Below are positions 20,103 through 36,532 of a stretch of DNA of 64,000 nucleotides, one piece after another. The notes under the pieces are model-generated. The model saw nothing but the letters and a program-made list of their open reading frames with translations. It ran no database searches and was not told the DNA's origin. This DNA comes from Cellulophaga sp. F20128 (GTDB lineage Bacteria; Bacteroidota; Bacteroidia; Flavobacteriales; Flavobacteriaceae): positions 1-64,000 of the forward strand of contig NZ_JALKBA010000005.1 in the NCBI RefSeq assembly GCF_023015805.1, written 5' to 3'. Each line of letters begins with the position of its first letter. Position 1 is the first letter of the stretch. A program made the translations under genes and the position numbers.

Positions 20103-20714
20103 ATGTATCTAATTTTTTTTAAGAGAGTCCTTGATATAGTGCTGGCAAGCCTAGGATTTATTATTTTATTTCCTTTCTTTTTTATTGTAGCAATCGTCTT
20201 GTTTTTCTCTAACAATGGAAAAGTTTTCTTTTTTCAACCAAGACCAGGACAGCACGAAGCCATTTTTAAAGTCATCAAATTTAAATCCATGAATGATAAA
20301 AAAGATGCTAATGGAGAATTATTACCCTTTCATTTACGTGTTACTAAATTTGGGAATTTTATTCGTAAATACTCCTTAGATGAAATACCACAATTGCTCA
20401 ATGTTTTAAAAAACGACATGAGTTTGGTGGGTCCCAGACCCCTTTTACTAGAGTATTTACCCCTTTATAACGACTTTCAAAAACAAAGGCATATAGCCAA
20501 ACCTGGCATTACCGGTTGGGCCCAAGTAAATGGTAGAAATGCCATTTCATGGGAACAAAAGTTTGAATTGGATGTTTGGTATGTTAACAATAGATCATTT
20601 ACCACCGACCTTAAAATTATTCTGTTAACTGTGAAAAAAGTATTTTTTAAAGAAGGTGTAAATAGTGATGAAAATTTAAACATGTCTACCTTTACAGGTA
20701 CACCTTTAAAATAA
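20103..20714 (+). CDS. Initiating phosphoglycosyltransferase (PglC/WcaJ-type sugar transferase)
   Basis: A 203-residue small monotopic phosphoglycosyltransferase that moves a sugar-1-phosphate from a UDP-sugar onto undecaprenyl phosphate, starting repeat-unit synthesis. One hydrophobic re-entrant helix lies at about 8-36. Then come QPRPG (46-49 region), FKVIKFKSM, the catalytic Asp-Glu dyad in SLDEIPQL (Asp93, Glu94), SLVGPRPLL and GITGWAQVNGRN. The length matches PglC rather than long WbaP/WcaJ enzymes. A terminator-like hairpin lies just downstream. Confidence 0.92.
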   Translation: MYLIFFKRVLDIVLASLGFIILFPFFFIVAIVLFFSNNGKVFFFQPRPGQHEAIFKVIKFKSMNDKKDANGELLPFHLRVTKFGNFIRKYSLDEIPQLLNVLKNDMSLVGPRPLLLEYLPLYNDFQKQRHIAKPGITGWAQVNGRNAISWEQKFELDVWYVNNRSFTTDLKIILLTVKKVFFKEGVNSDENLNMSTFTGTPLK

Positions 20715-20794: not shown

Positions 20795-22489
20795 ATGGAT
20801 AGAATTAGTAAAATAAAAGTACGCCTATATGGGGCAGGAGGCCACGCCCATGTGATTGTTGATGCCTTAAAATCTAATGATTTTGAGGTGAGTGAAATTT
20901 TTGATGATGACCCCAAAAATGGTCTTATTGCTTCCTTAAAAGTAGAAAAGATCGCTGCTAATTATGAAAATTTTCAATTTAAAGGAAGTCCCATGATTAT
21001 TGCCATTGGGAACAATAAGGTCCGTAAAAAAATTGCGAACCAATTAGACGTTGAATATATCACCGTTACCCATAAAAAATCTGCAGTTGCAACAAATACT
21101 ACTATTGGCAATGGTACGGTTATATTTGCAGGCGCCATAATACAACCCAATACCAAAATTGGAAAACACGTGATAATTAATAGTGGTGCAAGCGTTGACC
21201 ATGACAATATTATTGAAGATTTTGCACATATTTCGCCACAGGTAACCCTCTGCGGAGAAGTAACCATAAAAGAAGGGGCCTTTATTGGTGCAAATTCTGT
21301 TATTATCCCCAAAGTAACTATTGGCAAGTGGGCTACTGTTGGTGCCGGTTCAGTGGTACTAGAAAATGTTCCAGATTATGCAACGGTTGTAGGAAACCCC
21401 AGTAGAATAATTACCAAAAAAACCAAAACCAAGGCCTATCATTTATTTGTTAAAAAGCTAAAATCCTTAGAGGATATAAATTCATACAAAAAACTCTTAA
21501 ATCAATATTGGACTAATAATGTTTACTACACCTACGAATATTTAAAATACTACGAGAATCCTACCGACAAGCTCCGTTATTTTTTATTAACCGAAGAGGG
21601 TATTCCCGTAGCGATTATGCCTTTCTATATTCGAAAAATTACAGATTCTGAACATTACAAAGATGTAATTACTCCGTATGGCTACGGGGGGCCTTTATGT
21701 ATAGATTGCAATAACAGTAGTGTACTTCCCAAATTTTGGGAGCAGGTAGATCAGTGGTATCATAAAAACAATATCATTTCTGAATTTGTTCGCTTTAATT
21801 TGGATGGGAATCATAAAGATTACACTGGTAGTTTAACGGAAACATTGATCAATATTAAAGGGGCTATTAAAGAAAATAATGAAGCCCAATGGATTGCCTT
21901 TTCTACCAAAGTTAGAAACAATTATAGAAAAGCTGAAAAATACAATTTATCATTTCGTCTTTTTGAAGGTAAGAATATTACAGATGAAATTATCACTGAG
22001 TTTCACGATGTCTATATTGAAACTATGGAACGCAACAATGCAAAAGACATCTATTTCTTTTCTAAACAGTATTTTGAAAGCATTATTTATAGCAACCCAG
22101 ATAATTTTGCAATTGCCGTGTCTTATAAGGAAAATATAGCAGTTTCCGTAGAACTTATTATTATTAATGCTACAACACTATACGCCTTTTTAGGCGGTAC
22201 AAGAGCCAAGTATTTTGAATGTAGACCCAATGACTTTTTACGGGTTGAAATATTAAAATGGGCCGTTACCAATAAAATGAAATTTTATGTGTTGGGTGGT
22301 GGCCAACAAAATAATGATGGTTTGTATAAAAGTAAAAAGATGTTTTTTCCTAAGGATGAAGATGTGATTTTTTATACCGGGAGAAAAATAATAAATAAGG
22401 AGGTGTACAATTTACTTTCCGAAATTGCACCAACAACTGACGAAAGTATAGAGGCTCACGATTATTTTCCTGCCTATAGAAAACTTTAA
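20795..22489 (+). CDS. PglD-like acetyltransferase fused to a FemAB-like GNAT domain
   Basis: A 564-residue two-domain protein. Residues about 1-210 are a PglD/NeuD-like sugar O/N-acetyltransferase: an N-terminal Rossmann part with LYGAGGHAHVIVDAL, a left-handed beta-helix of hexapeptide repeats (IGNGTVIFAGAIIQ, IGKHVIINSGASVDHD, IKEGAFIGANSVI) and the closing VVGNPSR. Residues about 215-564 are a FemAB-like GNAT domain with TPYGYGGPL, STKVRNNYRKAEKY, AFLGGTRAKYF and VLGGGQQNNDGLYKSKKMF. PglD normally N-acetylates UDP-4-amino sugars and is single-domain. The fusion suggests one protein acylates the same or an adjacent amine twice or with two donors; this is inference. Confidence 0.85.
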   Translation: MDRISKIKVRLYGAGGHAHVIVDALKSNDFEVSEIFDDDPKNGLIASLKVEKIAANYENFQFKGSPMIIAIGNNKVRKKIANQLDVEYITVTHKKSAVATNTTIGNGTVIFAGAIIQPNTKIGKHVIINSGASVDHDNIIEDFAHISPQVTLCGEVTIKEGAFIGANSVIIPKVTIGKWATVGAGSVVLENVPDYATVVGNPSRIITKKTKTKAYHLFVKKLKSLEDINSYKKLLNQYWTNNVYYTYEYLKYYENPTDKLRYFLLTEEGIPVAIMPFYIRKITDSEHYKDVITPYGYGGPLCIDCNNSSVLPKFWEQVDQWYHKNNIISEFVRFNLDGNHKDYTGSLTETLINIKGAIKENNEAQWIAFSTKVRNNYRKAEKYNLSFRLFEGKNITDEIITEFHDVYIETMERNNAKDIYFFSKQYFESIIYSNPDNFAIAVSYKENIAVSVELIIINATTLYAFLGGTRAKYFECRPNDFLRVEILKWAVTNKMKFYVLGGGQQNNDGLYKSKKMFFPKDEDVIFYTGRKIINKEVYNLLSEIAPTTDESIEAHDYFPAYRKL

Positions 22490-22504: not shown

Positions 22505-23539
22505 ATGCTTGAAATTATTACTAAGAAAGAAGAATGGGATGGAGTTTTAAGTGAGGTAGATATGTTTGATTTCTATCATAGCTACGATTATCATAAAAAT
22601 TGTGCCAAAGAAAATGAAGAATCCGTTCTTTTTTGTTATAGGGAAGATGCTATCGTAATCGCTTTACCCCTATTAATTAGACCTATTAAAGACACATCTT
22701 ATTTTGATGCCACATCAGTCTATGGATACGGAGGTCCCCTAAGTAAAAATATTACAGCAGCCGTAAATGTAACCGTGTTTTATACTGAACTGCAACAGTA
22801 CCTTTCAAAAAGAAATATAATTGCAGTGTACAGTAGTTTAAACTCATATATAGACAACCAAAAAAGAATATTATCTGGTTTGGGTAAGATTGAAAAAATT
22901 GGTAAAATTGTTAACATTCGTTTAGACCAAAGTATCAGCGAGCAGGAAGCCAGTTTTTCCAAAACTACAAGACGGTATACCAATAGAAATAAAAAAATAT
23001 TCTATTCTAGATTTGGAAATACCCAAAAGGATGTTGACGTATTTATTGCTTTGTATTACAAAACTATGAACCGTTTAGAGGCCAGTGAAGGGTACTTTTT
23101 TAAAGAAGAATATTTTTACAAACTCATGGAAAGCAATGCCTATACTGCCGAAGTAATTTTTGCTATCACCAAAGACACACATCAAATTGCTTCAGCCGTG
23201 CTTTTTGTAAAAACCAACAACACCATTATTCAATACCATTTGTCCGGTACCTTGGAAGAATACAAACACTTATCCCCTATCCGTTTTCTGCTCAATGAAA
23301 TTCGTATACAAGGCACAAATGATGGCTATACCTATTTTAATTTGGGGGGAGGTTTTGGAGGAAAACAAGATTCTCTGTTCGATTTTAAAGCCTCTTTTTC
23401 TAATGATTATCAGAAATTTAAAGTTTGGAAGTATATTGTAAACCCTAAAATATATAATGCCCTAACCCGAGAAAACACAAATATTACGGCACGGACGAAA
23501 ACCAAATTTTTTCCGTTATACAGGTATAAAAATAGCTAA
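22505..23539 (+). CDS. FemAB-like GNAT-fold acyltransferase
   Basis: A 344-residue stand-alone relative of the C-terminal half of the preceding fusion protein. Shared landmarks are SVYGYGGPLSK, FSKTTRRYTNRNKK (basic helix), a YYKTMNRLEAS helix, a YHLSGTLEEYKHLSP segment and a terminal YFNLGGGFGGKQDSLFDFKASF. FemAB-family members use aminoacyl-tRNA or acyl-CoA to acylate amines on cell-wall or glycan precursors; donor and acceptor here are unknown. It lies 15 bp after the fusion gene. It is distinct from the six-member array downstream but belongs to the same superfamily. Confidence 0.8.
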   Translation: MLEIITKKEEWDGVLSEVDMFDFYHSYDYHKNCAKENEESVLFCYREDAIVIALPLLIRPIKDTSYFDATSVYGYGGPLSKNITAAVNVTVFYTELQQYLSKRNIIAVYSSLNSYIDNQKRILSGLGKIEKIGKIVNIRLDQSISEQEASFSKTTRRYTNRNKKIFYSRFGNTQKDVDVFIALYYKTMNRLEASEGYFFKEEYFYKLMESNAYTAEVIFAITKDTHQIASAVLFVKTNNTIIQYHLSGTLEEYKHLSPIRFLLNEIRIQGTNDGYTYFNLGGGFGGKQDSLFDFKASFSNDYQKFKVWKYIVNPKIYNALTRENTNITARTKTKFFPLYRYKNS

Positions 23540-23607: not shown

Positions 23608-24435
23608 ATGAATATTTTAAACGAAATTGAAGAACAGAGTATCCTCCTAGAGGAAGTAGAGGCTATAGACGCTATTTCATTTAAGAAAAAGTATGTTACT
23701 ACAAAAAAGCCTGTTTTATTAAAAGGATATGCTAAAAATTGGGGGGCTACTAAAAAATGGAACCTCGATTATTTGGTAAATTTAGCAGACGATAAAGAAA
23801 TAGGAGTGCTTTCTGGAAATTATATTCAGGGCGACATTCGCTACAAAAAAGCAACCTTAAAAGATTACCTGCTAAAACTTAAAAAAGCAGCAGAAAACAA
23901 AGAATCCTTTACCGAATATTTAACTACTTTAGATATTTTTAATTACCTACCCAATTTAAAAGGAGATACCGATTTTTCAATTTTTGAGAAAAATACAGCC
24001 ATCAATGATATCGCTGCATGGATTGGTCCTAAAGGAACGGTTACAGGATTCCACAATGATTCTGGAGACAATATGTATGCCCAAATAAAAGGGGAAAAAC
24101 TATTTATTTTGGTTGCTCCTGATGACAACAAATTTATGTACCCTAGTCCAAAATATGTAAATGGTGCCATTGCCAGTAAAATAGATATTACCAATTTTGA
24201 TGCGAAAAAGTATGGTGCATTTAAAAAGGCTAGATTTTATAAGGTCGTTTTACAACCTGGAGACGTACTATTTTTACCCAAAAGATGGTGGCATTATGTG
24301 CAGTCGCTAGATAGCTCTATTAGCATTAGCAATTTTGGATACTCCAAATTAGAACTATTTAAAATGAGAGCGCTTAATTTTTTACATAGAAGGGGGTATT
24401 ACAAATCTAAAAATTGTTATTGTTGCTCAAAATAA
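23608..24435 (+). CDS. JmjC/cupin_8-type Fe(II)/2-oxoglutarate dioxygenase-like protein
   Basis: A 275-residue cupin-like protein. The Fe(II)-binding triad reads as His149 and Asp151 in TGFHNDSGDN and His229 in KRWWHYVQSL; Lys164 in IKGEKLFIL is placed to bind 2-oxoglutarate. PGDVLFLP before the distal histidine is typical. Such enzymes hydroxylate protein or peptide side chains, or small molecules. The C-terminus ends in a short cysteine-rich CYCCSK tail, which is unusual. A hydroxylase between FemAB-like genes suggests it modifies an amino acid or acyl group used on the glycan; the substrate is unknown. Confidence 0.8.
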   Translation: MNILNEIEEQSILLEEVEAIDAISFKKKYVTTKKPVLLKGYAKNWGATKKWNLDYLVNLADDKEIGVLSGNYIQGDIRYKKATLKDYLLKLKKAAENKESFTEYLTTLDIFNYLPNLKGDTDFSIFEKNTAINDIAAWIGPKGTVTGFHNDSGDNMYAQIKGEKLFILVAPDDNKFMYPSPKYVNGAIASKIDITNFDAKKYGAFKKARFYKVVLQPGDVLFLPKRWWHYVQSLDSSISISNFGYSKLELFKMRALNFLHRRGYYKSKNCYCCSK

Positions 24436-24496: not shown

Positions 24497-25663
24497 ATGA
24501 GGCTCCTTAAAAATGAAGATTTTTATAAAGAATTTACAGAAAATAAAGCTATCCCTGCCTATTATAACAGTCTTATAACTAAATTTAATAAGCAAGCATT
24601 TTACACAGCAGTGCCCACCATGGTTGCTAGTCCAAAAGCAATATGTGTTTCCGTTAAGCTATTTCCAAAGTACCTAGTACCCAGTTTTCATCAAAGTGAA
24701 CAGCTCGGGGTTCACCGCGTTTTTCAAAAAGATGTAAATGGTTGTGCCATTCATATCAAAAATAAAATACCTGTTGCTGAATTTTTGAGAAATGAATACA
24801 GCAAAAAGTTTAGAACAAGTATCAATAGATCTGTAAACCGGTTTGAACTCTGTTTAAACTATAGTTACAAAATGATTAGTGAAGGCATTGAAAAAGAAGA
24901 TTTTCACTTTTTAATGGAAACATTGCGTGAAATGTTAGTTTTTAGGTTTAATCAAAGAAACGAGCCCAATGATGTTCTTACCCATTGGGAGTACTATTAT
25001 AAATTAACGTTTGAATTACTGAATGCAAAAAAAGCATCCATGTTTATCATATCCCATAATAACGAACCTATACATATTTGTATCAATTACCATTTTAAAG
25101 AGATTCTTTTTATTTCGATAGCCTCATTTAATCATAAATTCTCCAAATTTTCATTAGGAAATATATCCATTTATAAAATCTTAGAATGGGCGCTCTGTCA
25201 CAATTATGAACTTCTGGATATGGGCTATGGCGACCTAGAATACAAACGCAATTGGAGTAATTATTCGTACACATACGAAAATCATATTGTGCATACTAAA
25301 AAATGGAACTATACTCTAGCCGCAAACCTGGAAGCATCTAAAATTAGATTAAAAAACTTTTTAAAGAAGTATAGCGTAGCCCAAAAAATAGACAAACTAA
25401 AAGTATTACTACACCAAAACAAAACAATTTTAAACACCTATACTACATTTACCATTGAAGATGTAGCCCAATTACCGACTAAAAATTTACTCCCCATAGC
25501 CCTAGACAACGAAGCATTTGAGATCATTAGCAAAGCTGTCTATGACTCCATTTTCCTACAGTCCGTACCTATTGATACCATTACTGTATTTGAAATTAAA
25601 GCCCATAGCGAATACCTTTTAGTGAGTCCAAAAAGCACTAAAAAAATTACCGTTACGCAGTAA
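24497..25663 (+). CDS. GNAT/FemAB-like acyltransferase, array paralogue 1
   Basis: A 388-residue protein, the first of six paralogues between here and 34110. N-terminal region (1-95) variable; then the basic helix YSKKFRTSINRSVNRFELCL; the central GNAT-type sheet with ASMFIISHNNEPIHICINYHF; the signature LEWALCHNYELLDMGYGDLEYKRNW, equivalent to the D-L-x2-G-x3-YK motif of BioF2-like acetyltransferases; and a C-terminal ~60-residue module (about 325-388) shared by most paralogues. This copy and the one at 32962 are the closest pair by eye (both have HNY and YKRxWSN). No signal peptide, so it is probably cytoplasmic. A terminator overlaps its stop codon. Confidence 0.75.
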   Translation: MRLLKNEDFYKEFTENKAIPAYYNSLITKFNKQAFYTAVPTMVASPKAICVSVKLFPKYLVPSFHQSEQLGVHRVFQKDVNGCAIHIKNKIPVAEFLRNEYSKKFRTSINRSVNRFELCLNYSYKMISEGIEKEDFHFLMETLREMLVFRFNQRNEPNDVLTHWEYYYKLTFELLNAKKASMFIISHNNEPIHICINYHFKEILFISIASFNHKFSKFSLGNISIYKILEWALCHNYELLDMGYGDLEYKRNWSNYSYTYENHIVHTKKWNYTLAANLEASKIRLKNFLKKYSVAQKIDKLKVLLHQNKTILNTYTTFTIEDVAQLPTKNLLPIALDNEAFEIISKAVYDSIFLQSVPIDTITVFEIKAHSEYLLVSPKSTKKITVTQ

Positions 25664-25694
25664 GTAGCCTTTCATTTTTAACAGGCTATTTTTT
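25662..25694 (+). terminator. Intrinsic terminator ending the first acyl-transfer unit
   Basis: AAGTAGCCT (25662-25670) pairs with AGGCTATTT (25683-25691; one G-T pair) around a 12-nt loop, and the T-run extends to 25694. It begins inside the stop codon of the paralogue 1 gene. The MBOAT gene at 25816 therefore probably starts a new transcript. Confidence 0.7.
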
Positions 25695-25815
25695 ATGCCT
25701 TACAAATGTAATTTAGCCTATTTTTTTACGTTTTATCTTTTAAAGAATTGTCCGCAAAAAGAATTGGCTACTTTAGCTAGTCATTTGTGTCCTATCTTTT
25801 AATAATGCACTCTTT

Positions 25816-27261
25816 ATGTTATTTAATTCTTTTGAATTTTTATATTTTTTACCCTTAATTATAATAGGATTCTACATTTTACCCCAAAAAGTTCGATGGC
25901 TATGGTTGTTGATTGGTAGCTATTATTTTTATATGGTATATGAACCTGCTTTGGTTTTGTTACTAGTGGCCTCTACCTTAGTAGACTATTTTTGTGCACT
26001 AAAAATATACAGTGCTAAAACACAGCAAATAAAAAAAATATTTGCAGGTACCAGTATTGCCGTAAATGTTGGAATACTAATAGCTTTTAAATATTTGTTC
26101 TTTTTTTCAGCTTCACTTGCGAGCATTCTGGCATATTTTGGAATCGTTATTCCAATTGATGAAGCGGAGCAAAGTTATCATATAAGTCAAATTTTATTGC
26201 CTGTCGGAATCTCTTTTTATACGTTTCAGACCATGAGTTATACTATTGATGTGTATAGAGGCAGAATAAAACCTGAAAAACATTTAGGAGTTTTTGCGTT
26301 GTATGTCGCTTATTTTCCACAATTGGTAGCAGGGCCAATAGAGCGTGCTTCTAGGCTATTACCACAGCTAAAGAAAAAAGTAGCTATAAACCTAAAAAAC
26401 ATTGAACAAGGTCTTATTATGATGGCCTGGGGATTTTTTCTGAAAATTGTTGTGGCAGATAGACTTGGCATCTATGTAGATGAAGCATTTGCCAACCCTG
26501 AAAGCCCACATGGTTTTTCTTTAATTTTAGGAGCATTTCTTTTTTGTTTTCAAATCTATTATGACTTTTCGGCATATACTACAATTGCAATAGGAATTGC
26601 TAAAGTGTTAGGTGTAGATTTAATACAAAACTTTAACAGACCTATCTTCTTTACGAGTAGTGCAGATTTTTGGAAACGATGGCATATCTCTTTAATGCAA
26701 TGGATGCGAGATTATGTATACAGACCCTTAGTGGTAAACTTAAAATTAAAAAGAGTCCCCGCCGTATTGATCGTTTTTTTTGTAGTTGGCCTGTGGCATG
26801 GAGCTAATTGGACCTTTGTGGTCTGGAGTATGTTAAATGCACTGCTACTCATTGCAGAAGTTAGTACCAATACCTTCAGATCTCGGTTATTTAAAAAACT
26901 ACAGATACCCAAAAAAATTATTTCCTTTTTAGGTTGGTTTTTTGTATTTTGTTATTTAACGATAACCTTAGTCTTTTTTAGATCTTCATCAATAACTACA
27001 GCCTTAGTTTATTTAGAAAATATGTGTAACCTAGGAAGTTTACATATTAATATACTTAATAATTATTTAGAGCTATTTTTATGCTTAATTTTTATAGGTA
27101 TCGTGCAACTAATTCATTATTATAAAGGCAATAATAAAGTGTATGAATTGGTATTAGAACAACCAAAACATTACAAATGGATTGCATATTTTGGTTATAT
27201 TATTATTATTGTACTATTCGGTATTAACAGACAAAGCTCATTCATCTATTTTCAATTTTAG
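25816..27261 (+). CDS. MBOAT-family membrane O-acyltransferase (AlgI/PatA-like), copy 1
   Basis: A 481-residue polytopic protein with about 10 to 12 membrane segments. It has the AlgI-type landmarks LPVGISFYTFQTMSYTIDVYRG (around 128-149), FPQLVAGPIERA, FWKRWHISLMQWMRDYVYRPL with His290, and the invariant histidine in GLWHGANWTF (His328). MBOATs of this group pass an acetyl group from acetyl-CoA across the inner membrane to a partner that O-acetylates a polysaccharide. The partner is probably the SGNH-like protein encoded 4 bp downstream. It has RDYVYRPLV where canonical AlgI and copy 2 have RDYLYIPLGG. A terminator at 25662-25694 isolates it from the gene upstream. Confidence 0.9.
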   Translation: MLFNSFEFLYFLPLIIIGFYILPQKVRWLWLLIGSYYFYMVYEPALVLLLVASTLVDYFCALKIYSAKTQQIKKIFAGTSIAVNVGILIAFKYLFFFSASLASILAYFGIVIPIDEAEQSYHISQILLPVGISFYTFQTMSYTIDVYRGRIKPEKHLGVFALYVAYFPQLVAGPIERASRLLPQLKKKVAINLKNIEQGLIMMAWGFFLKIVVADRLGIYVDEAFANPESPHGFSLILGAFLFCFQIYYDFSAYTTIAIGIAKVLGVDLIQNFNRPIFFTSSADFWKRWHISLMQWMRDYVYRPLVVNLKLKRVPAVLIVFFVVGLWHGANWTFVVWSMLNALLLIAEVSTNTFRSRLFKKLQIPKKIISFLGWFFVFCYLTITLVFFRSSSITTALVYLENMCNLGSLHINILNNYLELFLCLIFIGIVQLIHYYKGNNKVYELVLEQPKHYKWIAYFGYIIIIVLFGINRQSSFIYFQF

Positions 27262-27265
27262 TATT

Positions 27266-28225
27266 ATGAAATATTTCATCTTAAAAATAATTTTATTTTG
27301 CTTCGTTCTAGCCGGTATTTACTTTAGTTTTATGTATAAAATATCTACTGGTTATGTAGATGAAAATTACCCTAAGTTCTGCCAAGAAGCTGGTGGGCTT
27401 ATACTTGGTGTTTCCACAGCCAGTCAAGGTATTTCGCCTCAAATTTTAGAAGATGAGTTGCAGGAATTTAAATTTGAAAAACCAATCGTAAATTTCGCTA
27501 TAAACTTTGAACAATCGCAATATGGAGATATCTATTTAAATAGTGTCAAAAACAAACTAAAAAAACAACATCAGAAAGGATTGTTTATTTTAACAGTAAC
27601 TCCGGCCAGTTTTACCACTACAAAAAATTTGGATGAGAAAGCACTACGGAAACTAGACCAAGAAAAGATATTAGGCAAAATTAGTAATTTTTCCAAAGCT
27701 CCTAATTTTGATTATATTAGTAATTGCTACCCAATTTCCTTGTACAATGCAATTTACCCTACTAATAAATGGGATAATCTGGTGGTCCATGCCAATGGAT
27801 GGAATGAATTTAAACTAAAGAGTAACTCTTACACCGTAACAAAGGAAGATTTAACTTTGTGGAAAAAACAAACCCTAGAATTCCAAACTAAATTCATTAA
27901 AACTCAAGAATTTAGTAAACTAAGGCTACAAAGTTTCGTTGAAACCATAAACTTCTTAAAAGAAAAAGGAGATGTGTTTATTGTACGCATGCCTTTGACT
28001 GCTGAAATGCTGGCTCTTGAAGATGAAAAATGGAAAAATTTTGATGCTCAGTTTGATAGTATTGCCAAGACAGAGAACGTTCCGTTTTTAAATTATTCAC
28101 AAAAAGAGTTGGGCTTTAACACATACGATGGCACACATTTGGTATCTGAAAGTGCCAAAGAATTTACTTCTCTACTAAGCAAGGATATTAAGAATTCATT
28201 GCAAATTGATGCCAATAAAAAATAG
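27266..28225 (+). CDS. SGNH-hydrolase-like membrane-anchored partner of MBOAT copy 1
   Basis: A 319-residue protein with an N-terminal membrane anchor (about 4-22) and a periplasmic domain. GLILGVSTASQG (Ser50) sits where SGNH enzymes carry the nucleophile, and YDGTHLVSESA near the C-terminus has the DxxH pair. The frame is open from 27182, inside the MBOAT gene, but the ATG at 27266, 4 bp after the MBOAT stop, gives a proper signal anchor and I use it. By analogy with PatB and AlgJ/AlgX, it should transfer acetyl from the MBOAT to the glycan. The serine motif is GVS rather than GDS, so family assignment is moderate. Confidence 0.65.
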   Translation: MKYFILKIILFCFVLAGIYFSFMYKISTGYVDENYPKFCQEAGGLILGVSTASQGISPQILEDELQEFKFEKPIVNFAINFEQSQYGDIYLNSVKNKLKKQHQKGLFILTVTPASFTTTKNLDEKALRKLDQEKILGKISNFSKAPNFDYISNCYPISLYNAIYPTNKWDNLVVHANGWNEFKLKSNSYTVTKEDLTLWKKQTLEFQTKFIKTQEFSKLRLQSFVETINFLKEKGDVFIVRMPLTAEMLALEDEKWKNFDAQFDSIAKTENVPFLNYSQKELGFNTYDGTHLVSESAKEFTSLLSKDIKNSLQIDANKK

Positions 28226-28239
28226 TCATACTTTATATA

Positions 28240-29481
28240 ATGATAAAAAATAATCCCTTTTTAAATACTTTATTTGCAAAAACTTGGCTTGCTCATTTCT
28301 CTCCTACAACTAAGGAATATTCATTTTCTTTATTTCCAGAAATTAGCTTTTTAAAAAGTAAATGGTTACCGTTATTTGTTAATTTAGGAAAAACAAATAC
28401 AAAAGGGATAAATTATACACTTGCCAACGAAGACAATAACCTATTAAAAAATAAGACCTTTTTAATTTATGATGTACATACCTATTTTAATACAGTTGAA
28501 GCAGGCACAAAAACGCAGCTAAAACTAAAAAAAATTACACAATATCCTGGTTATTTGTGTGAACTAGAAAATTTTTCTAGCGTAGCAGCTTATATGAAAA
28601 AAAACTTAAGCAAGAATAGCAACTATAAGTTTAATTTATACAAGAGAAAGCTAGAACATTGCTTTGATATCAGCTATACGATGTATTATGGAGCCATTCC
28701 CAAAGAAACCTATACCCATTTATTTACTGTATTTCACCAACTATTGGTAAAACGCTTTGCTGAAAAACAAGAATCTAATAATAATTTAGATACAACCGAA
28801 TGGGATTTTTACTTTGATGTAACCTACCCCATGATCCTTGAAAAAAAAGCAGCTTTATTTGTGACCTACAATAAAGAAATACCCATTGCGATAACCTTAT
28901 TAAATTTCTCTGACAGCATTGCTTTTGACACCATTAGAGTCTTTGATACAGACTACGCTCCCTTTAGGCTTGGTACCATTAGTATTATTGAGCAGCTACA
29001 ATGGTGTATTGAAAATGGAATAAAATATTTAGATTTTTCTAAAGGACACTATGAATATAAGGAACGTTGGGCTACTACAAAATACAATTTTGAATACCAT
29101 ATACTATATGATTCAAAAGGCGGCATATCTCGTTTAATTGCTCATACAATCCTATCCTATTTTAGGCTTAAAAATTATTTAAGAGAGAAAAATATTAATA
29201 CGGTTTTTCACAAATTCACGTTTTTATTAAAAAACAAAAAAAACAATGTAACCCTTAAAAAAAAGGCTGACTTATTAGATACTACAAATAGGCCGTTGGC
29301 GACCTACTTAAAACCTATTGATATGGATACCAAAGAAAATGCGGCACTTTTAAAATTCACCTATCAATTCATGTACAATACATCTGAAAAGTTAACTGAT
29401 ATTCAACTATATGAAATAACCAATAAAGCCAATTGTTTTTATATAGAAGGTTTAGAAAACGGGTATACCTTTGTTGCCTAG
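28240..29481 (+). CDS. GNAT/FemAB-like acyltransferase, array paralogue 2
   Basis: A 413-residue array member, the longest. It has LSKNSNYKFNLYKRKLEHCF (basic helix), YYGAIPKETYTHLFTVF, AALFVTYNKEIPIAITLL, FDTDYAPFRLGTISI and the signature LQWCIENGIKYLDFSKGHYEYKERW. The shared C-terminal module begins near residue 350 (KPIDMDTKEN, then YQFMYNTSEKLTDIQLYEI). It follows the SGNH-like gene by 14 bp, so MBOAT, SGNH and this gene form one run. The same enzyme class and cytoplasmic location as paralogue 1 are expected; the substrate is unknown. Confidence 0.75.
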   Translation: MIKNNPFLNTLFAKTWLAHFSPTTKEYSFSLFPEISFLKSKWLPLFVNLGKTNTKGINYTLANEDNNLLKNKTFLIYDVHTYFNTVEAGTKTQLKLKKITQYPGYLCELENFSSVAAYMKKNLSKNSNYKFNLYKRKLEHCFDISYTMYYGAIPKETYTHLFTVFHQLLVKRFAEKQESNNNLDTTEWDFYFDVTYPMILEKKAALFVTYNKEIPIAITLLNFSDSIAFDTIRVFDTDYAPFRLGTISIIEQLQWCIENGIKYLDFSKGHYEYKERWATTKYNFEYHILYDSKGGISRLIAHTILSYFRLKNYLREKNINTVFHKFTFLLKNKKNNVTLKKKADLLDTTNRPLATYLKPIDMDTKENAALLKFTYQFMYNTSEKLTDIQLYEITNKANCFYIEGLENGYTFVA

Positions 29482-29513
29482 AATTTAATTAAATTAGTAC
29501 CAGAAGTGAATGT

Positions 29514-30455
29514 ATGCTAGAGAAATACTTTTCAAATAAAATAACCAATCTTGTTTTCTGTTTCTTCTTGGAAAGAAGCTTGCCTTCCTTTTTTAGGGAT
29601 ACGGTTGCTAATTCCCTATCGGGCCACACCATTACCATTCCAAAAAAATTAGCATTAAACAACAAGCATAGGCACCTCATTAAAAATATTCCCAATTACC
29701 TATTATTTTCAGACAATAAAGAAGGCCTAGGCTCCTTAAAGTTTAAGGATGTACCCCAATACAAAGGCTTTTTATTGGACTTTTCCAAATATCAGACAGC
29801 ATCACAATTTATAGAAAACCAACTCAGTAAAAGAAATCAAAAAAATTTACGTGCAAAACAAAAAAAGTTAGAGCATACTCATAAAATATCGCATCGTTTT
29901 TATTTTGGATGTATTGAAAAGAAAGAGTATACTATTATATTTAGCGCTTTTTATCAATTCTTAAAAAATAGGTTTGATCAAAAAAAAACACAAAACAGGT
30001 ACCTTGCAGATTGGGAAGCTATGCAGACAGAAATCTATGGTAAAATTTTAAACAAAGAAGCTTCACTATTTGTTATTTATGATGATTGCGCACCCATTGG
30101 CATAACCTTAAACTTTCATCTTGATACTATTGTATTTAGCCATATACAAGCCTACAACATAGACTATTCTAGTTACAATATTGGAGATATTTGTATGCTT
30201 CATCACATTGATTGGTGTATGGCCAATAATATATCAGTTTTTGATTTATCTATGGGAGAAACGTATTACAAACTAAAATGGAGTAACCATCACTACCTTT
30301 TTTTAAATAGACTCTATTACAACAACACTGCTGTGGTAGACAATATTTGGGTAAAAACACAGTTTTTTAAATTTAAATTGCTTCAGTTTTTAAGAGACAA
30401 ACAAATTTTAGGGAACTATTTTTCTTTAGACAAACTTTTATATAAACTTAAATAA
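29514..30455 (+). CDS. GNAT/FemAB-like acyltransferase, array paralogue 3 (short form)
   Basis: A 313-residue array member that ends about 70 residues earlier than its sisters and lacks their C-terminal module. It keeps LSKRNQKNLRAKQKKLEHTH, FGCIEKKEYTIIFSAFYQFL, ASLFVIYDDCAPIGITLNFH, YNIDYSSYNIGDICM and the signature IDWCMANNISVFDLSMGETYYKLKW. The last helix (FFKFKLLQFLRDKQI) is present, so the GNAT core appears complete and the loss looks like a clean C-terminal truncation rather than decay. No in-frame continuation of the module is evident in the 38-bp gap that follows. Confidence 0.75.
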   Translation: MLEKYFSNKITNLVFCFFLERSLPSFFRDTVANSLSGHTITIPKKLALNNKHRHLIKNIPNYLLFSDNKEGLGSLKFKDVPQYKGFLLDFSKYQTASQFIENQLSKRNQKNLRAKQKKLEHTHKISHRFYFGCIEKKEYTIIFSAFYQFLKNRFDQKKTQNRYLADWEAMQTEIYGKILNKEASLFVIYDDCAPIGITLNFHLDTIVFSHIQAYNIDYSSYNIGDICMLHHIDWCMANNISVFDLSMGETYYKLKWSNHHYLFLNRLYYNNTAVVDNIWVKTQFFKFKLLQFLRDKQILGNYFSLDKLLYKLK

Positions 30456-30493
30456 CACCAATTCCTAAGCGTACCTATATTAAATAATAATAA

Positions 30494-31672
30494 ATGTTAA
30501 TAAAGATAGATTTTATCGAGTGCTTATTATTAAAGCCAAAAGATTTCTTTTTGTTTTACACAAAATTAAAAAACAAATTATGTAACAGTACGTTATTTAC
30601 AAGCAAACCATCAAATAAGATGGATGTTGATAAAAACACCTATCTCTTTTCTGATGTGCCACATTACATTATTCCTTCCTTCAATACATCTAGTAAAACG
30701 GTTAAAGTAATTACATTAAATACGCATATGGGTTCCATGATTAACCTGAAAAATTATAAGAATTTAGATGAGTATTTGAAAACCAACTTTAGCGGCAAGA
30801 GTAGATACGAGTTTAGGAATTACAAAAAAAGGATAGCGAAATGCTTTCCAATTAGCTACAAAGTGTATTATGGAAATATAGATAAAAAAGAATATGACCG
30901 CCTTTTTACTATATTTCCGGAAATGATAAAAAAACGTTTTGATTCCTTAGGAGTGGAACATTATGCCCTAGATATTTGGGATAATTATGAGGAAAATGGT
31001 TTTTCTCTAATTAATGAAAAAAGAGCTTGTTTATTTGTAATCTACGATAGAGGTATTCCTATTAGCATTGCTTTTAACCCCATATTAAATAAAACACTCT
31101 ATGGCTATATGAGAAGTTATGATATTAATTATTCTAAGTTTTATTTAGGTTTTATAGACTTAATATGGCAATTAGAATGGTGTTTTGAAAATAACATCGA
31201 AGTTTTTGATTTATTAAAAGGTACGTATAGCTATAAATCTAAATTTACAGATAGCACCTACTTTTTTCAAAAGCATATTGTTTACAATTCAAAATCCATA
31301 GTTTCTATATCAATAGCAGCCATGTATTCTATTAAACTTAAGAGCTTTTATTATATCATTAAATTACTAAAAAAGTGTAGCGTAGATACTGTGTATCATC
31401 ACTATAAACAACGAAAAGAAAAGTCAAAATTGACACCTAAAAATAAGAGTTACATTAGTACGGAAATTGATTACGAAACTAATTTATTTGATAGCTTATC
31501 AACAATAGACATTAATAAAGAAGCATATTCATTTTTAAGAAAACCTATCTACGATTGTATTTATACAGCTAAAGAGTCCATTAATAGCGTGCTTGTTTAT
31601 AAAAACAATAACGCTTACATTCTTAAAGGTGAGAAAAAATGTTATTTAATAACAACCGCAGAAACATTATAA
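30494..31672 (+). CDS. GNAT/FemAB-like acyltransferase, array paralogue 4
   Basis: A 392-residue array member. The N-terminal part carries LFSDVPHYIIPSF (a DVPxY motif seen in several paralogues); then FSGKSRYEFRNYKKRIAKCF, YYGNIDKKEYDRLF, ACLFVIYDRGIPISIAF, SYDINYSKFYLGFIDL and LEWCFENNIEVFDLLKGTYSYKSKF. The C-terminal module reads FLRKPIYDCIYTAKESINSVLVYK. Most similar by eye to paralogue 5 next to it, with which it shares DLLKG and exact length. Substrate unknown. Confidence 0.75.
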   Translation: MLIKIDFIECLLLKPKDFFLFYTKLKNKLCNSTLFTSKPSNKMDVDKNTYLFSDVPHYIIPSFNTSSKTVKVITLNTHMGSMINLKNYKNLDEYLKTNFSGKSRYEFRNYKKRIAKCFPISYKVYYGNIDKKEYDRLFTIFPEMIKKRFDSLGVEHYALDIWDNYEENGFSLINEKRACLFVIYDRGIPISIAFNPILNKTLYGYMRSYDINYSKFYLGFIDLIWQLEWCFENNIEVFDLLKGTYSYKSKFTDSTYFFQKHIVYNSKSIVSISIAAMYSIKLKSFYYIIKLLKKCSVDTVYHHYKQRKEKSKLTPKNKSYISTEIDYETNLFDSLSTIDINKEAYSFLRKPIYDCIYTAKESINSVLVYKNNNAYILKGEKKCYLITTAETL

Positions 31673-31676
31673 TGAT

Positions 31677-32855
31677 ATGCTAAAACCGAATAGAATTGTT
31701 TTTTTAAAAGCTTTGTTTTACGCTAGTGATTTCTTTTATGTATTTGATAAGGTAACCTATAAAACCAAGGTTGTTTATTCTGAAAAAACAATTAAAAACA
31801 CCAATGCTGATCAGGGTTTGTATTTAATACAGGATGTTCCAAACTATTTAAAAACCCATACTCCAGAAAAGTCTAAGTTTAAAAAAACAGAGGTACAAAC
31901 ACTGCAAGGGTTTTTAGTTGAAACCAATAAATTTGATACCTTAGAAGCCTATTTAAAACATAATTTTGGTGCCAAAAGTAGGTCTAATTTAAGACGGTAT
32001 CAAAATAGATTAGAAAAGTGTTTTACCATAGATTATACTTGTTATTATGGCAGTATCCCCAAAGAAGAGTATAACAAACTTTTTATCGCCCTTAAAGAAC
32101 TATTAATTAGACGTTTTGAAGAAAAAAAAGAAAGTAATTATGAATTGCAGCATTTTGATGAATATCACGACCTAATTTATAATTTAATTTTAAAAAAAGA
32201 AGCGAGCCTATTTGTAATTTATCACAACAAAAAACCAATAAGCATTCGCATTAATATGTTTAAGGCAAATTTGGGATTTTATATAATGAGCTGTTATGAT
32301 ATTGACTATTCTAAATTTCATTTAGGTGCAATAGATATGCTTAAAAATATTGAATGGTGTTTTAAAAATGATATTGCTACATATGATCTTTTAAAAGGAT
32401 ATGAGTATTACAAAAAAGACTGGATGACTACAACTTACTCCTATTACAATCATATAATTTATGATGCTAATTCTAGTAAAGCTACCCTAGTTGCCTTTTT
32501 TACTAAATTAAGAATAAGTTACCGTTATAAATTATATTATATATTAAAACGTATCAACCTTCATCATCCGTATAAAAAAATTAAACAATTTCTTTATAAC
32601 CTATCAAACAAAAATAAAAATCATAAAGAATTAAAACAGCTAACTGTTTCTGACCTAAATTTAAATAAAAAAGAGAACCGTATTGATTTTGAAAACAATA
32701 CTAATTATCATTTCATAAAAAAATATGTTATAGATTTACTTTTTATATCCAAAGAGCACTACAATGATATTAAAGTTTATAGAATATTAGCGGAAGAAAA
32801 TTACATCGTTATTGAAGGAAAAAACAAGGAATGGTTCTTTAAAATATTAAATTAA
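31677..32855 (+). CDS. GNAT/FemAB-like acyltransferase, array paralogue 5
   Basis: A 392-residue array member starting 4 bp after paralogue 4, so the two are probably translationally coupled. Landmarks: LIQDVPNYLKTH, FGAKSRSNLRRYQNRLEKCF, YYGSIPKEEYNKLF, ASLFVIYHNKKPISIRINMF, CYDIDYSKFHLGAIDM, IEWCFKNDIATYDLLKGYEYYKKDW, and a C-terminal module with FIKKYVIDLLFISKEHYNDIK. A 20-bp stretch coding YDIDYSK (32295-32314) is identical to one in paralogue 6 (33574-33593), indicating fairly recent duplication or gene conversion. Confidence 0.75.
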   Translation: MLKPNRIVFLKALFYASDFFYVFDKVTYKTKVVYSEKTIKNTNADQGLYLIQDVPNYLKTHTPEKSKFKKTEVQTLQGFLVETNKFDTLEAYLKHNFGAKSRSNLRRYQNRLEKCFTIDYTCYYGSIPKEEYNKLFIALKELLIRRFEEKKESNYELQHFDEYHDLIYNLILKKEASLFVIYHNKKPISIRINMFKANLGFYIMSCYDIDYSKFHLGAIDMLKNIEWCFKNDIATYDLLKGYEYYKKDWMTTTYSYYNHIIYDANSSKATLVAFFTKLRISYRYKLYYILKRINLHHPYKKIKQFLYNLSNKNKNHKELKQLTVSDLNLNKKENRIDFENNTNYHFIKKYVIDLLFISKEHYNDIKVYRILAEENYIVIEGKNKEWFFKILN

Positions 32856-32902
32856 ATAGTACTATTGAACGCACATCACTAAATTTATTTTAAACAAAAA
32901 CT

Positions 32903-32910
32903 TAATTTTG
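32903..32910 (+). promoter_or_regulatory. -7-like element upstream of paralogue 6
   Basis: TAATTTTG matches TAnnTTTG and lies 52 bp before the ATG at 32962. No TTG at proper spacing is seen. Its own TTG (32908-32910) is in frame with the gene, which makes a false upstream start. Confidence 0.35.
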
Positions 32911-32961
32911 CATACGGTTGTATGTAGATATAACCAATACAGTAAACCAGGACTTTTTTTA

Positions 32962-34110
32962 ATGATCACAACAAACAAAATAGTATTTAACACCCATGTA
33001 TTTAAAGGTGAAGCTATTTCTCCATTATTCCCTTCTCTTGAATATTTTGAAGAAAAAATAACCAACACAATTAAGGAGGATACCTTCCCTATTCCTAATT
33101 ATTCATTGAGTTTGGTACCCAGCTATATTAAATTACAACTCACAGATCCTAAATTTTCGCATACCATTATAAAACAAAACAATTGGGGCTATGCCATACA
33201 TTTAAAATCCAACTCCACCATAGATGATTATCTACAGGAACAATACAATTCTAAAAAAAGGAGTATTATTCGCAGGTATGTAAATAGATTGGAGGCCTGT
33301 TTTACAATAAACTACAAGCTTTACTATGGGGCTATTACTAAAGAAGAATATCATTTTATAATGGATTCTTTAAAAGAAATGATTGTTCATAGATTTAAGC
33401 AACGGAACGAACAAAACAAGGAATTGCCAAATTGGGATGCCCTTTTAGAAGAAACATATCCTAAAATACAAAACAAACAAGCTTCTTTATTTGTAATTTA
33501 TGACGACAATAAACCTATAGAAATCTCCTTAAATTATCATTTTGGAAAAATACTATTTAGCACTATTTCTTCCTATGATATTGACTATTCTAAGTTTGGT
33601 TTGGGCCATGTAGAAATATACAAACAAATAGAATGGTGCTGTGCTCATAACTATATCCTTTTTGAAATGGGTGTTGGGGGAATGGATTACAAACGAAGAT
33701 GGAGCAATACTATTTACAATTTTGAACACCATATAATTTACAACACTACTAATTTTGCTTCTAAAATGATGGGGCAATTGGAAGTGATAAAAATAAAAAC
33801 GAAAGAATATTTAAAGTCTAAAAAGATCAACGAAATTGTACCTAATCTAAAACACAAATACTTTGCTAACAAAGAAGTTGAAACCGATATACAAATTTCA
33901 ACTATTGATAAAAACACTACTAAAGATCATTTAAATCTGATTGAGATTACAATAGCGAGCCCAGAGTATGATTTTTTAAAAAAATACGTGTATGATTTTC
34001 TTTATACAACTATAGCACATATAAGCACCGTAAAAACATATAAGTTGACTAAAAACACCTATCTAATTGTAGGCAATAAACACCATCAAAAAATATTAAA
34101 AGAGAGCTAA
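32962..34110 (+). CDS. GNAT/FemAB-like acyltransferase, array paralogue 6
   Basis: A 382-residue array member. The frame opens with a TTG at 32908, but that TTG belongs to a -7-like element, and the ATG at 32962 aligns with the N-termini of the paralogues (MITTNKIVF beside MLKPNRIVF in paralogue 5). Landmarks: YNSKKRSIIRRYVNRLEACF, YYGAITKEEYHFIM, ASLFVIYDDNKPIEISLNYH, SYDIDYSKFGLGHVEI, IEWCCAHNYILFEMGVGGMDYKRRW, and the C-terminal module FLKKYVYDFLYTTIAHISTVK. It ends the array, 19 bp from the convergent SGNH gene, with a small hairpin GCTAA-CCTA-TTAGC (34106-34119) at the junction. Confidence 0.75.
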   Translation: MITTNKIVFNTHVFKGEAISPLFPSLEYFEEKITNTIKEDTFPIPNYSLSLVPSYIKLQLTDPKFSHTIIKQNNWGYAIHLKSNSTIDDYLQEQYNSKKRSIIRRYVNRLEACFTINYKLYYGAITKEEYHFIMDSLKEMIVHRFKQRNEQNKELPNWDALLEETYPKIQNKQASLFVIYDDNKPIEISLNYHFGKILFSTISSYDIDYSKFGLGHVEIYKQIEWCCAHNYILFEMGVGGMDYKRRWSNTIYNFEHHIIYNTTNFASKMMGQLEVIKIKTKEYLKSKKINEIVPNLKHKYFANKEVETDIQISTIDKNTTKDHLNLIEITIASPEYDFLKKYVYDFLYTTIAHISTVKTYKLTKNTYLIVGNKHHQKILKES

Positions 34111-34129: not shown

Positions 34130-35077
34130 TTAACGTATACTTAGGTTTTCATTTTTTATATATTCAGCAATTCTATCCGCAATAATTTCTCTTCCAGCAT
34201 CATTCCAATGTTGATCATAAATTAAGGTTTTAGGTATATTATCCTTCTTAAAATCAGCATTAAAATCAATTGTTCTAAAATCATTTACTTTTAAGTAGTT
34301 TAAAAACTCTTGGGAACACAGACTGTAATCAACCAATAAAATATTCTTCTCTTTGTTGTAATTGTAAAAGTTTACAAGCTTTTTAAAATTTTCTAGGTAT
34401 AAGGAATCGTTATTTTTCTTTTTATGAATATCTCCTGAAACCCCTTTACTGAAATTAACTACAGCTGCTATTTTTTCCTTAATAGGGTCAAAAAATCCAA
34501 TATCTTTGGCATATACTATTAATTTACTACGCTTAAGCAATTTATTTAAGGGGGTATTCAATGACAACCTATTAGACAATTTATACTCGCCCGTAATTAA
34601 ATCATCTGTGAACCTTATATAAACGACCACCCTATCTATATCTTTAAACAAGTGATTGTATGCCTGCATTAAATTTAATTGATCAGCCAGGTTATATCCG
34701 GCATATCCAAACTCGAATACCTTGACATTTGGAATTTTCTTTTCTACTTTTCTACTGATTGAGTTTGTATAATCCTGATGAAAACCTTCAATAAAAGAAT
34801 CCCCAACTATCGCAATTTCTATACTATCTTTTGAGGGCAGATAATTGTTATACACAGAATTAAAACCAAAATCATTAATACGATATTCGCCTACATTTTG
34901 CTTTCTATTTCCAGTTACCGAATAACCAGCTTGGTTTGGAACCCATTTTTCAACACCGTATTCATCAGCATATCTTTCCGGTCTTTCATTGTGTAAATGA
35001 AATACACGAACAAGCAACTCTAGCGAAACTAGTAGAACAATACTATATACTATAAATTTTAATAAAATCTTTTTCAT
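34130..35077 (-). CDS. SGNH-hydrolase-like partner of MBOAT copy 2
   Basis: A 315-residue protein with an N-terminal membrane anchor (about 5-24) and a periplasmic SGNH domain. The catalytic serine is in IAIVGDSFIEGF (Ser94), a GYAGYN block follows, and the Asp/His pair is in YDQHWNDAGREI near the C-terminus. This is a clearer SGNH protein than the one at 27266. It starts 3 bp after the MBOAT gene, so the two should act together in O-acetylation of an exported glycan. Confidence 0.82.
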   Translation of the reverse strand: MKKILLKFIVYSIVLLVSLELLVRVFHLHNERPERYADEYGVEKWVPNQAGYSVTGNRKQNVGEYRINDFGFNSVYNNYLPSKDSIEIAIVGDSFIEGFHQDYTNSISRKVEKKIPNVKVFEFGYAGYNLADQLNLMQAYNHLFKDIDRVVVYIRFTDDLITGEYKLSNRLSLNTPLNKLLKRSKLIVYAKDIGFFDPIKEKIAAVVNFSKGVSGDIHKKKNNDSLYLENFKKLVNFYNYNKEKNILLVDYSLCSQEFLNYLKVNDFRTIDFNADFKKDNIPKTLIYDQHWNDAGREIIADRIAEYIKNENLSIR

Positions 35078-35080
35078 ACC

Positions 35081-36532
35081 CTAAAATTGAAAATAAATAA
35101 ATGATCTATCTACGCCATCATCATAAAACAATAACATTAAAAACACCAATAAAATATACATTGCTAAACGCAAATATCTATTTTTAAAAGCTATTGGATT
35201 ACGCTCATTATTTCTAATTATGTATTCATACACCAGAAAGAATAAAAGCAATAAAAAATAATCTATTATGCGATATCCATTTGGATGTATATAATTCTCT
35301 ACAGAAAAGTCAGTGAAAATAATTTTTAAATATGCAAAGGAATCTGTAAGCGTATTACTTCTAAAAAATACCCAACCAATAGTGACTAATATAAATGTTA
35401 GCAATGTGTTGTATACATTTGAAAATACCTTTAAAATATTAAATGACGACAAACTAGCATCATTCTTATATTTTCTATTGGTGCCTAATAAAAAACTAGG
35501 TAAAAACAGTAGGGCGTGAAAGAGACCCCAAAAAATAAATGTCCAATTGGCACCATGCCAAAACCCACTAACCAAAAATATAATAAAAATATTACGGATT
35601 CCAATGGCTTTAGATTGCTTAGAACCCCCTAGTGGGATGTATAAATAATCTCTGAACCAAGTAGACAATGAGATATGCCAACGTCTCCAAAACTCACCTA
35701 TATTCCTAGATAAATAGGGAAATTTGAAATTGGACATTAATTCAATACCAAATAATTTGGCAGTACCAATGGCTATATCTGAATACCCACTAAAATCACC
35801 ATAAATTTGAAAAGCAAAAAATACGGCTCCCATTATTAGAACAGGAGAAGAATGCGTTTCATAGTTCGCAAAAATATCATTAACTATAGGTGATAAAGAA
35901 TCTGCTATGACCACCTTTTTAAATAATCCCCATAAAATTAATCGCAATCCATCTTTTGACTGACAGTAATTTAATTTTCGTTTTTGTAGTATTTGTGGTA
36001 ATAGGTTACTAGCCCTTTCTATAGGTCCTGCAACTAATTGAGGAAAGAAACTAACAAAGGCTGCAAAGGCTACAATCTTTCTAGTTGGTTCTAAATTTCT
36101 TTTGTAAACATCTATAGTATAACTTAAGGTCTGAAATGTATAAAAACTTATACCTACAGGAAGTATTATATACAAAGTTTCAACTTTTATCTCTTGCCCA
36201 AAGAATGTAAATGCTTCTACAAAACTATCTACAAAGAAGTTATAGTATTTAAAAAAACCTAAAAAACCTAAATTAATACCTATACTCGTCCATAAATAAA
36301 GTTTTCGTTTTTTCTCATTTTCTTCTTTTTCCAAAAGAATGCCTAAGGTGTAATCTACGATTGTACTGAAAATTATTAATGATAAAAACCGCCAGTCCCA
36401 CCAACCGTAAAACACATAACTTGCCACTACTAATAGAAAGTTTTGTACTCTTAAATTTTTATTTAAAACAAACCAATAAAGTATAAAAACAATTGGCAAA
36501 AAAATTACAAAATCTATGGAGTTAAAAAGCAT
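35081..36532 (-). CDS. MBOAT-family O-acyltransferase (AlgI-like), copy 2
   Basis: A 483-residue polytopic protein closely following AlgI: ILPVGISFYTFQTLSYTIDVYKR, FPQLVAGPIERASNLLPQ, FWRRWHISLSTWFRDYLYIPLGGS and GFWHGANWTFIFWG with the invariant histidine. It should deliver acetyl groups across the inner membrane for polysaccharide O-acetylation with its SGNH partner. It is the second MBOAT within 11 kb, transcribed against the first, and differs from it in the RDY loop, so the two are probably not redundant. A 268-bp gap separates it from bshA upstream. Confidence 0.92.
   Translation of the reverse strand: MLFNSIDFVIFLPIVFILYWFVLNKNLRVQNFLLVVASYVFYGWWDWRFLSLIIFSTIVDYTLGILLEKEENEKKRKLYLWTSIGINLGFLGFFKYYNFFVDSFVEAFTFFGQEIKVETLYIILPVGISFYTFQTLSYTIDVYKRNLEPTRKIVAFAAFVSFFPQLVAGPIERASNLLPQILQKRKLNYCQSKDGLRLILWGLFKKVVIADSLSPIVNDIFANYETHSSPVLIMGAVFFAFQIYGDFSGYSDIAIGTAKLFGIELMSNFKFPYLSRNIGEFWRRWHISLSTWFRDYLYIPLGGSKQSKAIGIRNIFIIFLVSGFWHGANWTFIFWGLFHALLFLPSFLLGTNRKYKNDASLSSFNILKVFSNVYNTLLTFILVTIGWVFFRSNTLTDSFAYLKIIFTDFSVENYIHPNGYRIIDYFLLLLFFLVYEYIIRNNERNPIAFKNRYLRLAMYILLVFLMLLFYDDGVDRSFIYFQF

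Follow-up and report, generated by a model that had tools for sequence, protein, structure and literature searches.

An ordered array of PF13480 transferases in a glycan locus of Cellulophaga sp. F20128: candidate FemX-like enzymes for decoration of an exopolysaccharide

Six paralogous genes, A to F, in the window (the whole 64,000-nt stretch of DNA analysed) encode PF13480 transferases of a set that recurs in the same order in other genera. Relatives keep these enzymes in an almost identical order, which points to decoration of the sugar coat in several fixed steps. With about even confidence, A to F are read here as FemX-like, probably tRNA-dependent transferases that would decorate an amino sugar of an exopolysaccharide, each with its own fixed step.

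The array and its locus

All six genes lie on the forward strand: A (orthogroup A) at 24497-25663, B at 28240-29481, C at 29514-30455, D at 30494-31672, E at 31677-32855 and F at 32962-34110. For F, the ORF caller placed the start at a TTG (32908; ORF 32908-34110), and the ATG at 32962, which matches the F orthologs, is the likelier start. The six paralogous genes that an earlier note had placed here were confirmed as ORFs, and all members (6/6) matched PF13480 (Acetyltransf_6) with at least 31.8 bits (cut-off 22). The motifs quoted in that note were present, but YYGxIxKEEY and YDIDYSKFxLG fitted some members only. Its description of one run of genes did not hold, as A is separated from B-F by an MBOAT membrane O-acyltransferase gene (MB1, 25816-27261, forward; PF03062, E 3e-27) and an SGNH-like gene (SG1, 27266-28225, forward), in a layout of 1+5. 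SG1 was named as the MB1 partner by eye and by position; it had no Pfam match and one N-terminal hydrophobic segment, and its homologs adjoin MB1 homologs in relatives.

The array consists of tandem paralogs inside a low-G+C variable locus, and the other five members are 21-33% identical to A. Proteins A-F have 313-413 aa (C is the short member, 313 aa, without the C-terminal domain) and no strongly hydrophobic segment (maximum KD19 1.29). An MprF-type N-terminal membrane flippase domain was absent from A-F, and the window held no dedicated tRNA gene. Purifying selection acts on A, B, C and F (dN/dS about 0.14-0.19 between the congeners G003 and G006). Genome-wide (4.17 Mb), PF13480 had eight matches at E up to 0.001, all eight within the array locus, where two extra PF13480 genes stand upstream of A. 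One, Fem1 (20795-22489, forward), encodes a fusion of a NeuD/PglD-type acetyltransferase with a FemAB-like domain (TIGR03570, PF04339 and PF02388 above cut-off). The other, Fem2 (22505-23539, forward), is a FemX homolog by sequence (E 8e-9 to FemX with a profile of 22 Fem2-type proteins), and its K295 aligns with FemX K305, the residue being counted by hand on the alignment.

Between Fem2 and A lies a JmjC/Cupin_8 hydroxylase-like gene (23608-24435, forward; PF13621), whose product is JMJD5-like (E 2e-35). To the left of Fem1 are a PglC-like initiating sugar transferase (20103-20714, forward; PF02397, E 1e-60) and a glycosyltransferase of group 1, GTx (17699-18847, forward), homologs of which stand near the array in relatives; the genome has two PF02397 genes only. 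Ten proteins to the left of Fem1 were scanned; besides glycosyltransferase and PglC-like proteins, they comprised UDP-glucose dehydrogenase-type, epimerase, flippase-type, EpsG-type and two pyruvyltransferase proteins, and such a set marks a polysaccharide locus. To the right of F, on the reverse strand, are SG2 (34130-35077), the SGNH-like partner of MB2 with an ALGX profile match below cut-off, and MB2 itself (35081-36532), a second MBOAT that forms the right border of the cassette site described below. No ligase or carrier family was matched among window ORFs of at least 60 aa from 17.7 to 36.5 kb. A 351-aa protein at 19005-20060 is PLP-enzyme-like by eye only, without a Pfam or PDB sequence match, and its homologs adjoin PglC in 3/5 of the array-less congeners (L205, L208, L209). 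At 15303-17348, on the reverse strand, is a probably secreted protein that is beta-helix-like by eye and has homologs in 16/82 loci, the window included.

Across loci, a PglC or GTx homolog was present in the stretch fetched in 66/82, and 16/82 had neither in that stretch. The glycan locus proposed in the earlier note was thereby supported, and the genes did not occur mostly away from glycan loci. Labels of neighbouring genes came from BLAST against window, G003 and G023 proteins, the names CapK, ATPgr, PLP, Pect and SGNH being given by eye. A PylC-like ATP-grasp gene, of an amino-acid-ligase-type family, was labelled in 33/82 loci (the ATPgr label was Pfam-confirmed for one protein, and CapK had no Pfam match), an AMP-ligase in 17, a carrier protein in 13 and JmjC in 15. 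The 22 loci with at least five members comprised 10 with an AMP-ligase or carrier label, 12 with a CapK or ATP-grasp label and six with neither; these ligase and carrier labels led us to abandon the generalisation that the array has no accompanying ligase. JmjC was commoner in loci with A (7/12) than in those without it (8/70; Fisher p = 8e-4, relatedness ignored), and the association of a JMJD5-like hydroxylase with A-type loci fits an amino-acid substrate.

Three further features were observed in other loci. One is a PylC-like ATP-grasp protein (L039:13167-14192), which may serve the same pathway as an amino-acid ligase. A block that recurs in other genera (L045:7324-10173) combines an AMP-ligase and a carrier protein with a 364-aa protein that has no Pfam or credible PDB match. 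The same locus encodes a 1236-aa fusion of an FAD/NAD-binding domain with Fem1-like and Fem2-like parts (L045:1621-5328).

Orthologous groups, gene order and distribution

From 86 fetched loci plus the window, 238 members were called above 80 bits and 235 entered the first tree, the three under 250 aa being left out; two fragments (76 and 35 bits) fell below the cut-off. Gene counts come from an ORF caller of our own, which takes the longest ORFs and leaves them open at stretch ends, and the first tree was divided into orthogroups by hand, with clade sizes chosen for the purpose. Four clades were well supported: A (12 members, 12 genomes, support 1.0), B (88 members, 71 genomes, 0.993), C (23 members, 23 genomes, 1.0) and E (13 members, 13 genomes, 0.995). 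Groups F (21 members, support 0.75) and D (22 members, 0.51) were weaker. In a second tree (119 members, 19 loci), A (98), B (100), C (100), E (100), F (76) and an extra member X (99), which is missing from the window, were clades; D formed none, nor did a1 and a2, two minor groups. Separate jobs, as the earlier note had supposed, are supported by separate clades for all members but D and by the conserved order.

The relative order B-C-D-E-X-F was kept in 228/240 gene pairs, and 10 of the 12 exceptions were due to extra B copies in G287. B genes stood directly after a gene labelled FADfem or Fem2 in 59/94 cases (named loci). Loci held 1 to 8 members, and 34/75 genomes had B only in the stretches fetched (the whole genome held one match in G022, G025, G120 and G197), which leaves six unsupported as a special number. 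B was the commonest member (71/75 genomes): 37 of the 41 other genomes also had it. The presence of F without B in G217 and G254 ruled out B as an obligatory member, and D occurred without C in G101 and G251. The locus of G342 was cut by contig ends, and G032 had a B-like piece at a contig end, as read from scores. A second array type, B with a2/a1/A, and partial sets also exist; within one array type, though, set and order are fixed across genera, so that the combinatorial or tunable set of decorations envisaged in the earlier note is not supported.

A profile of the six members matched 11/60 near relatives (own genome included), with 3/17 congeners among them. In Flavobacteriaceae the array family was patchy, being found in 88/397 genomes and 69/237 genera; no more than four candidates were scored in any genome of this survey, and the copy numbers from it are therefore minimum values. 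The examined genomes were 75 of 91 with a match (the 88, own genome included, plus G003, G006 and G014). Two wider draws gave 5/196 and 5/395 matching genomes, all of the own family (the draws do not show the size of the out-of-family sample), and 0/23 genomes from other families of the same order matched. Named genomes were also scanned with a DNA pattern, and 80 of 162 confirmed loci were retained, including Zobellia, Maribacter, Arenibacter, Flagellimonas and Winogradskyella. No plasmid-borne relative of B was matched in a collection of 72,556 plasmid records.

The corresponding site was examined in congeners. Six matched a flanking gene (37961-40924); the five array-less ones were fetched, and the sixth, near a contig end, was left out. 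An MBOAT/SGNH-like pair and a PglC homolog were present at the corresponding site in 5/5, as was a Fem1-type protein with a PF13480 domain, and a Fem2-type gene in 2/5. In G004 the series MBOAT-SGNH-Fem2-Fem1-PglC-PLP was complete, with no array member. As the flanking genes are kept in all five array-less congeners, the array is an optional cassette within a FemAB-containing glycan locus.

The Cellulophaga fucicola genome carries a seven-member array, and its strain, DSM 24786, is presumably that of the published O-antigen study. That O-antigen is Gal-Glc-Pse, with no amino acids according to the part of the paper available (PMC3210612). The NeuB-type genes of C. fucicola are on a contig other than that of the array, which makes it unlikely that the array product is this O-antigen. 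From both observations, the array probably serves another glycan.

Fold, motifs and choice among explanations

AlphaFold models of two of the six members, B (pLDDT 91.3, pTM 0.89) and F (pLDDT 91.5, pTM 0.89), were both double GNATs. The GNAT fold and FemX-type likeness expected in the earlier note were thus recovered, and neither model lacked a GNAT fold. Foldseek top ranks were LPG synthase/MprF (5vrv, a putative LPG synthase, and 9j8s, MprF), 2hqy (second) and FemX (E 1.1e-7) for B, and 2hqy, FemX (E 8.5e-9) and the tRNA-dependent peptide synthase Sbb17, a match of both models, for F; 2hqy is a protein without known function. Double GNATs that use acetyl-CoA ranked lower (B: 2wpw, 7.6e-6, and VipF, 1.1e-5; F: VipF, 1.2e-6), and the known-function matches ahead of them (LPG synthase/MprF, FemX, Sbb17) are aminoacyl-tRNA-dependent or annotated so. 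With F, the CoA-dependent VipF ranked above ATE1. TM-scores were modest (0.36-0.46 by query, both top tens).

The basic helix pointed out in the earlier note had a net charge of at least +3 in 235/235 members (mean +5.2; mean 98th percentile within own sequence), and an invariant Lys (235/235) stood five residues past a nearly invariant Gly. This Lys is Lys274 in B and Lys244 in F, counted from 32962. The motif [QR]xxGx[GA], which we take to be the pyrophosphate loop of CoA-dependent GNATs, was found in 2/235 members in a search confined to the surroundings of the invariant Gly215 of F. At sequence level, A-F did not match PF02388 at E up to 0.1, FemX was absent from the matches of the A-F profile in PDB sequences at E up to 1, and profile-profile comparisons of A-F with Fem2 were not significant, the alignment stopping before the Lys. 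These searches leave sequence homology of A-F to FemX unsupported, and the putative equivalence of the Lys to FemX Lys305 is therefore read from motif and register. In FemX, Lys305 is reactive and the basic helix of GNAT domain 2 has been proposed to bind tRNA, according to the part of the source available (PMC12945691).

The proposed transferases would act in the cytoplasm as soluble double-GNAT aminoacyl (or acyl) transferases. Before export, amino acids would be drawn from charged tRNAs and attached, directly or successively, to an amino sugar of a repeat unit linked to a lipid or a nucleotide; the exopolysaccharide locus is presumed to be of Wzx/Wzy type. Outside the cell, the exported polymer would be O-acylated by the MBOAT/SGNH pairs; hydroxylation of an attached residue may be the role of the JmjC enzyme. 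The absence of a ligase or carrier family from the window locus points, for that locus, to donors from a general pool, most easily aminoacyl-tRNAs. The fold matches, the basic helix, the invariant Lys, the rarity of the CoA loop motif and Fem2, an adjacent FemX homolog with an aligned counterpart of Lys305, count for this reading. Against it count the modest TM-scores, the high rank of 2hqy, the place of VipF above ATE1 for F, the non-significant sequence comparisons and the 16/82 loci without PglC and GTx homologs in the stretch fetched. The one polymer structure located for a species with an array, that of the C. fucicola O-antigen, also counts against it, having no amino acids in the part of that source available.

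The main alternative concerns the donor. PF13480 includes many non-tRNA enzymes, and A-F may instead be acyl-CoA or acyl-carrier-protein N-acyltransferases, each with a different acyl group, their FemX likeness reflecting the shared GNAT fold only. The double GNATs VipF and 2wpw do match the models of B and F, and the AMP-ligase (17/82) and carrier-protein (13/82) labels in other loci would suit such donors. This possibility is judged to be the less probable one in view of the near absence of the CoA loop motif, the window locus without ligase or carrier family and the better known-function fold matches with tRNA-dependent enzymes.

Two further explanations concern the division of labour among the members. 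Tandem paralogs in a low-G+C variable locus, the lack of X in the window and short member fragments in G251 might suggest duplicates that are partly redundant or decaying and lack roles of their own; the low identity to A, the cross-genus clades and the low dN/dS of A, B, C and F make this very improbable, and the trees led to the rejection of simple redundancy. The tRNA-dependent reading also has a bolder form, compatible with it: a stepwise line in which the first residue is added by B and the later ones by C, D, E, X and F, one enzyme per residue, to give a short peptide on the sugar. Besides the conserved gene order, it draws on the nested presence B>C>D>E (3 violations among the 75 genomes, compared with an average of 23.6 and a minimum of 14 over 5000 shuffles that ignore relatedness). 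Inheritance as a block would also yield nesting, and F without B, D without C and the other array type fit a stepwise line poorly, so that it is considered doubtful. Somewhat less likely still is its full elaboration, in which one FemX-like ligase per residue, in gene order, would place a sequence-defined, non-ribosomal oligopeptide with a JmjC-hydroxylated residue on each exopolysaccharide repeat.

Relation to known systems

FemABX proteins (FemX of Weissella) share with A-F the double GNAT, as modelled for B and F, and putatively the basic helix in the second GNAT and a Lys that follows a Gly where a strand ends, the presumed Lys305 equivalent. They differ in that A-F have no significant sequence match to them, that the acceptor of the array seems to be a glycan repeat unit and that up to eight paralogs occur per locus. 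The soluble domain of MprF, or lysyl- or alanyl-phosphatidylglycerol synthase, was the top fold match of B, whereas A-F have neither the membrane flippase domain nor a lipid context. Aminoacyl-tRNA is diverted to cell walls, lipids and antibiotics by known enzymes and, to our knowledge, by few of them per pathway. Colwellia belongs to a different phylum from Cellulophaga. In the part of the source available, the polysaccharide of Colwellia psychrerythraea, with Thr or Ala, is a precedent for amino acids on a marine surface polysaccharide, but with one kind of amino acid per polymer (PMC5852497). HfsK of the Caulobacter holdfast is a FemX-like tandem GNAT that acts in an exopolysaccharide adhesin, its donor and acceptor being unknown; unlike the array, it is described in the available part of the paper as a single, c-di-GMP-controlled gene (PMC5362036). 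The natural-product enzymes VlmA, DhpH-C, PacB and Orf11 (PMC12945691, in part) and, by their PDB titles, Sbb17/Sba18 add amino acids from tRNA to small acceptors; in contrast to the array, one or two such GNAT-fold ligases are named per pathway in that source, for antibiotics rather than polysaccharides. A literature search of titles and abstract openings, with most subscription papers outside its range, returned no account of such an array.

If the preferred reading of A-F as tRNA-dependent transferases is true, five to eight ordered enzymes extend aminoacyl-tRNA chemistry to the surface polysaccharides of marine bacteria. They would open a way to marine glycans that bear amino acids and supply a ready-made set of enzymes that differ in specificity. 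Were the assembly line also true, the sugar coat would bear a sequence-defined, non-ribosomal peptide.
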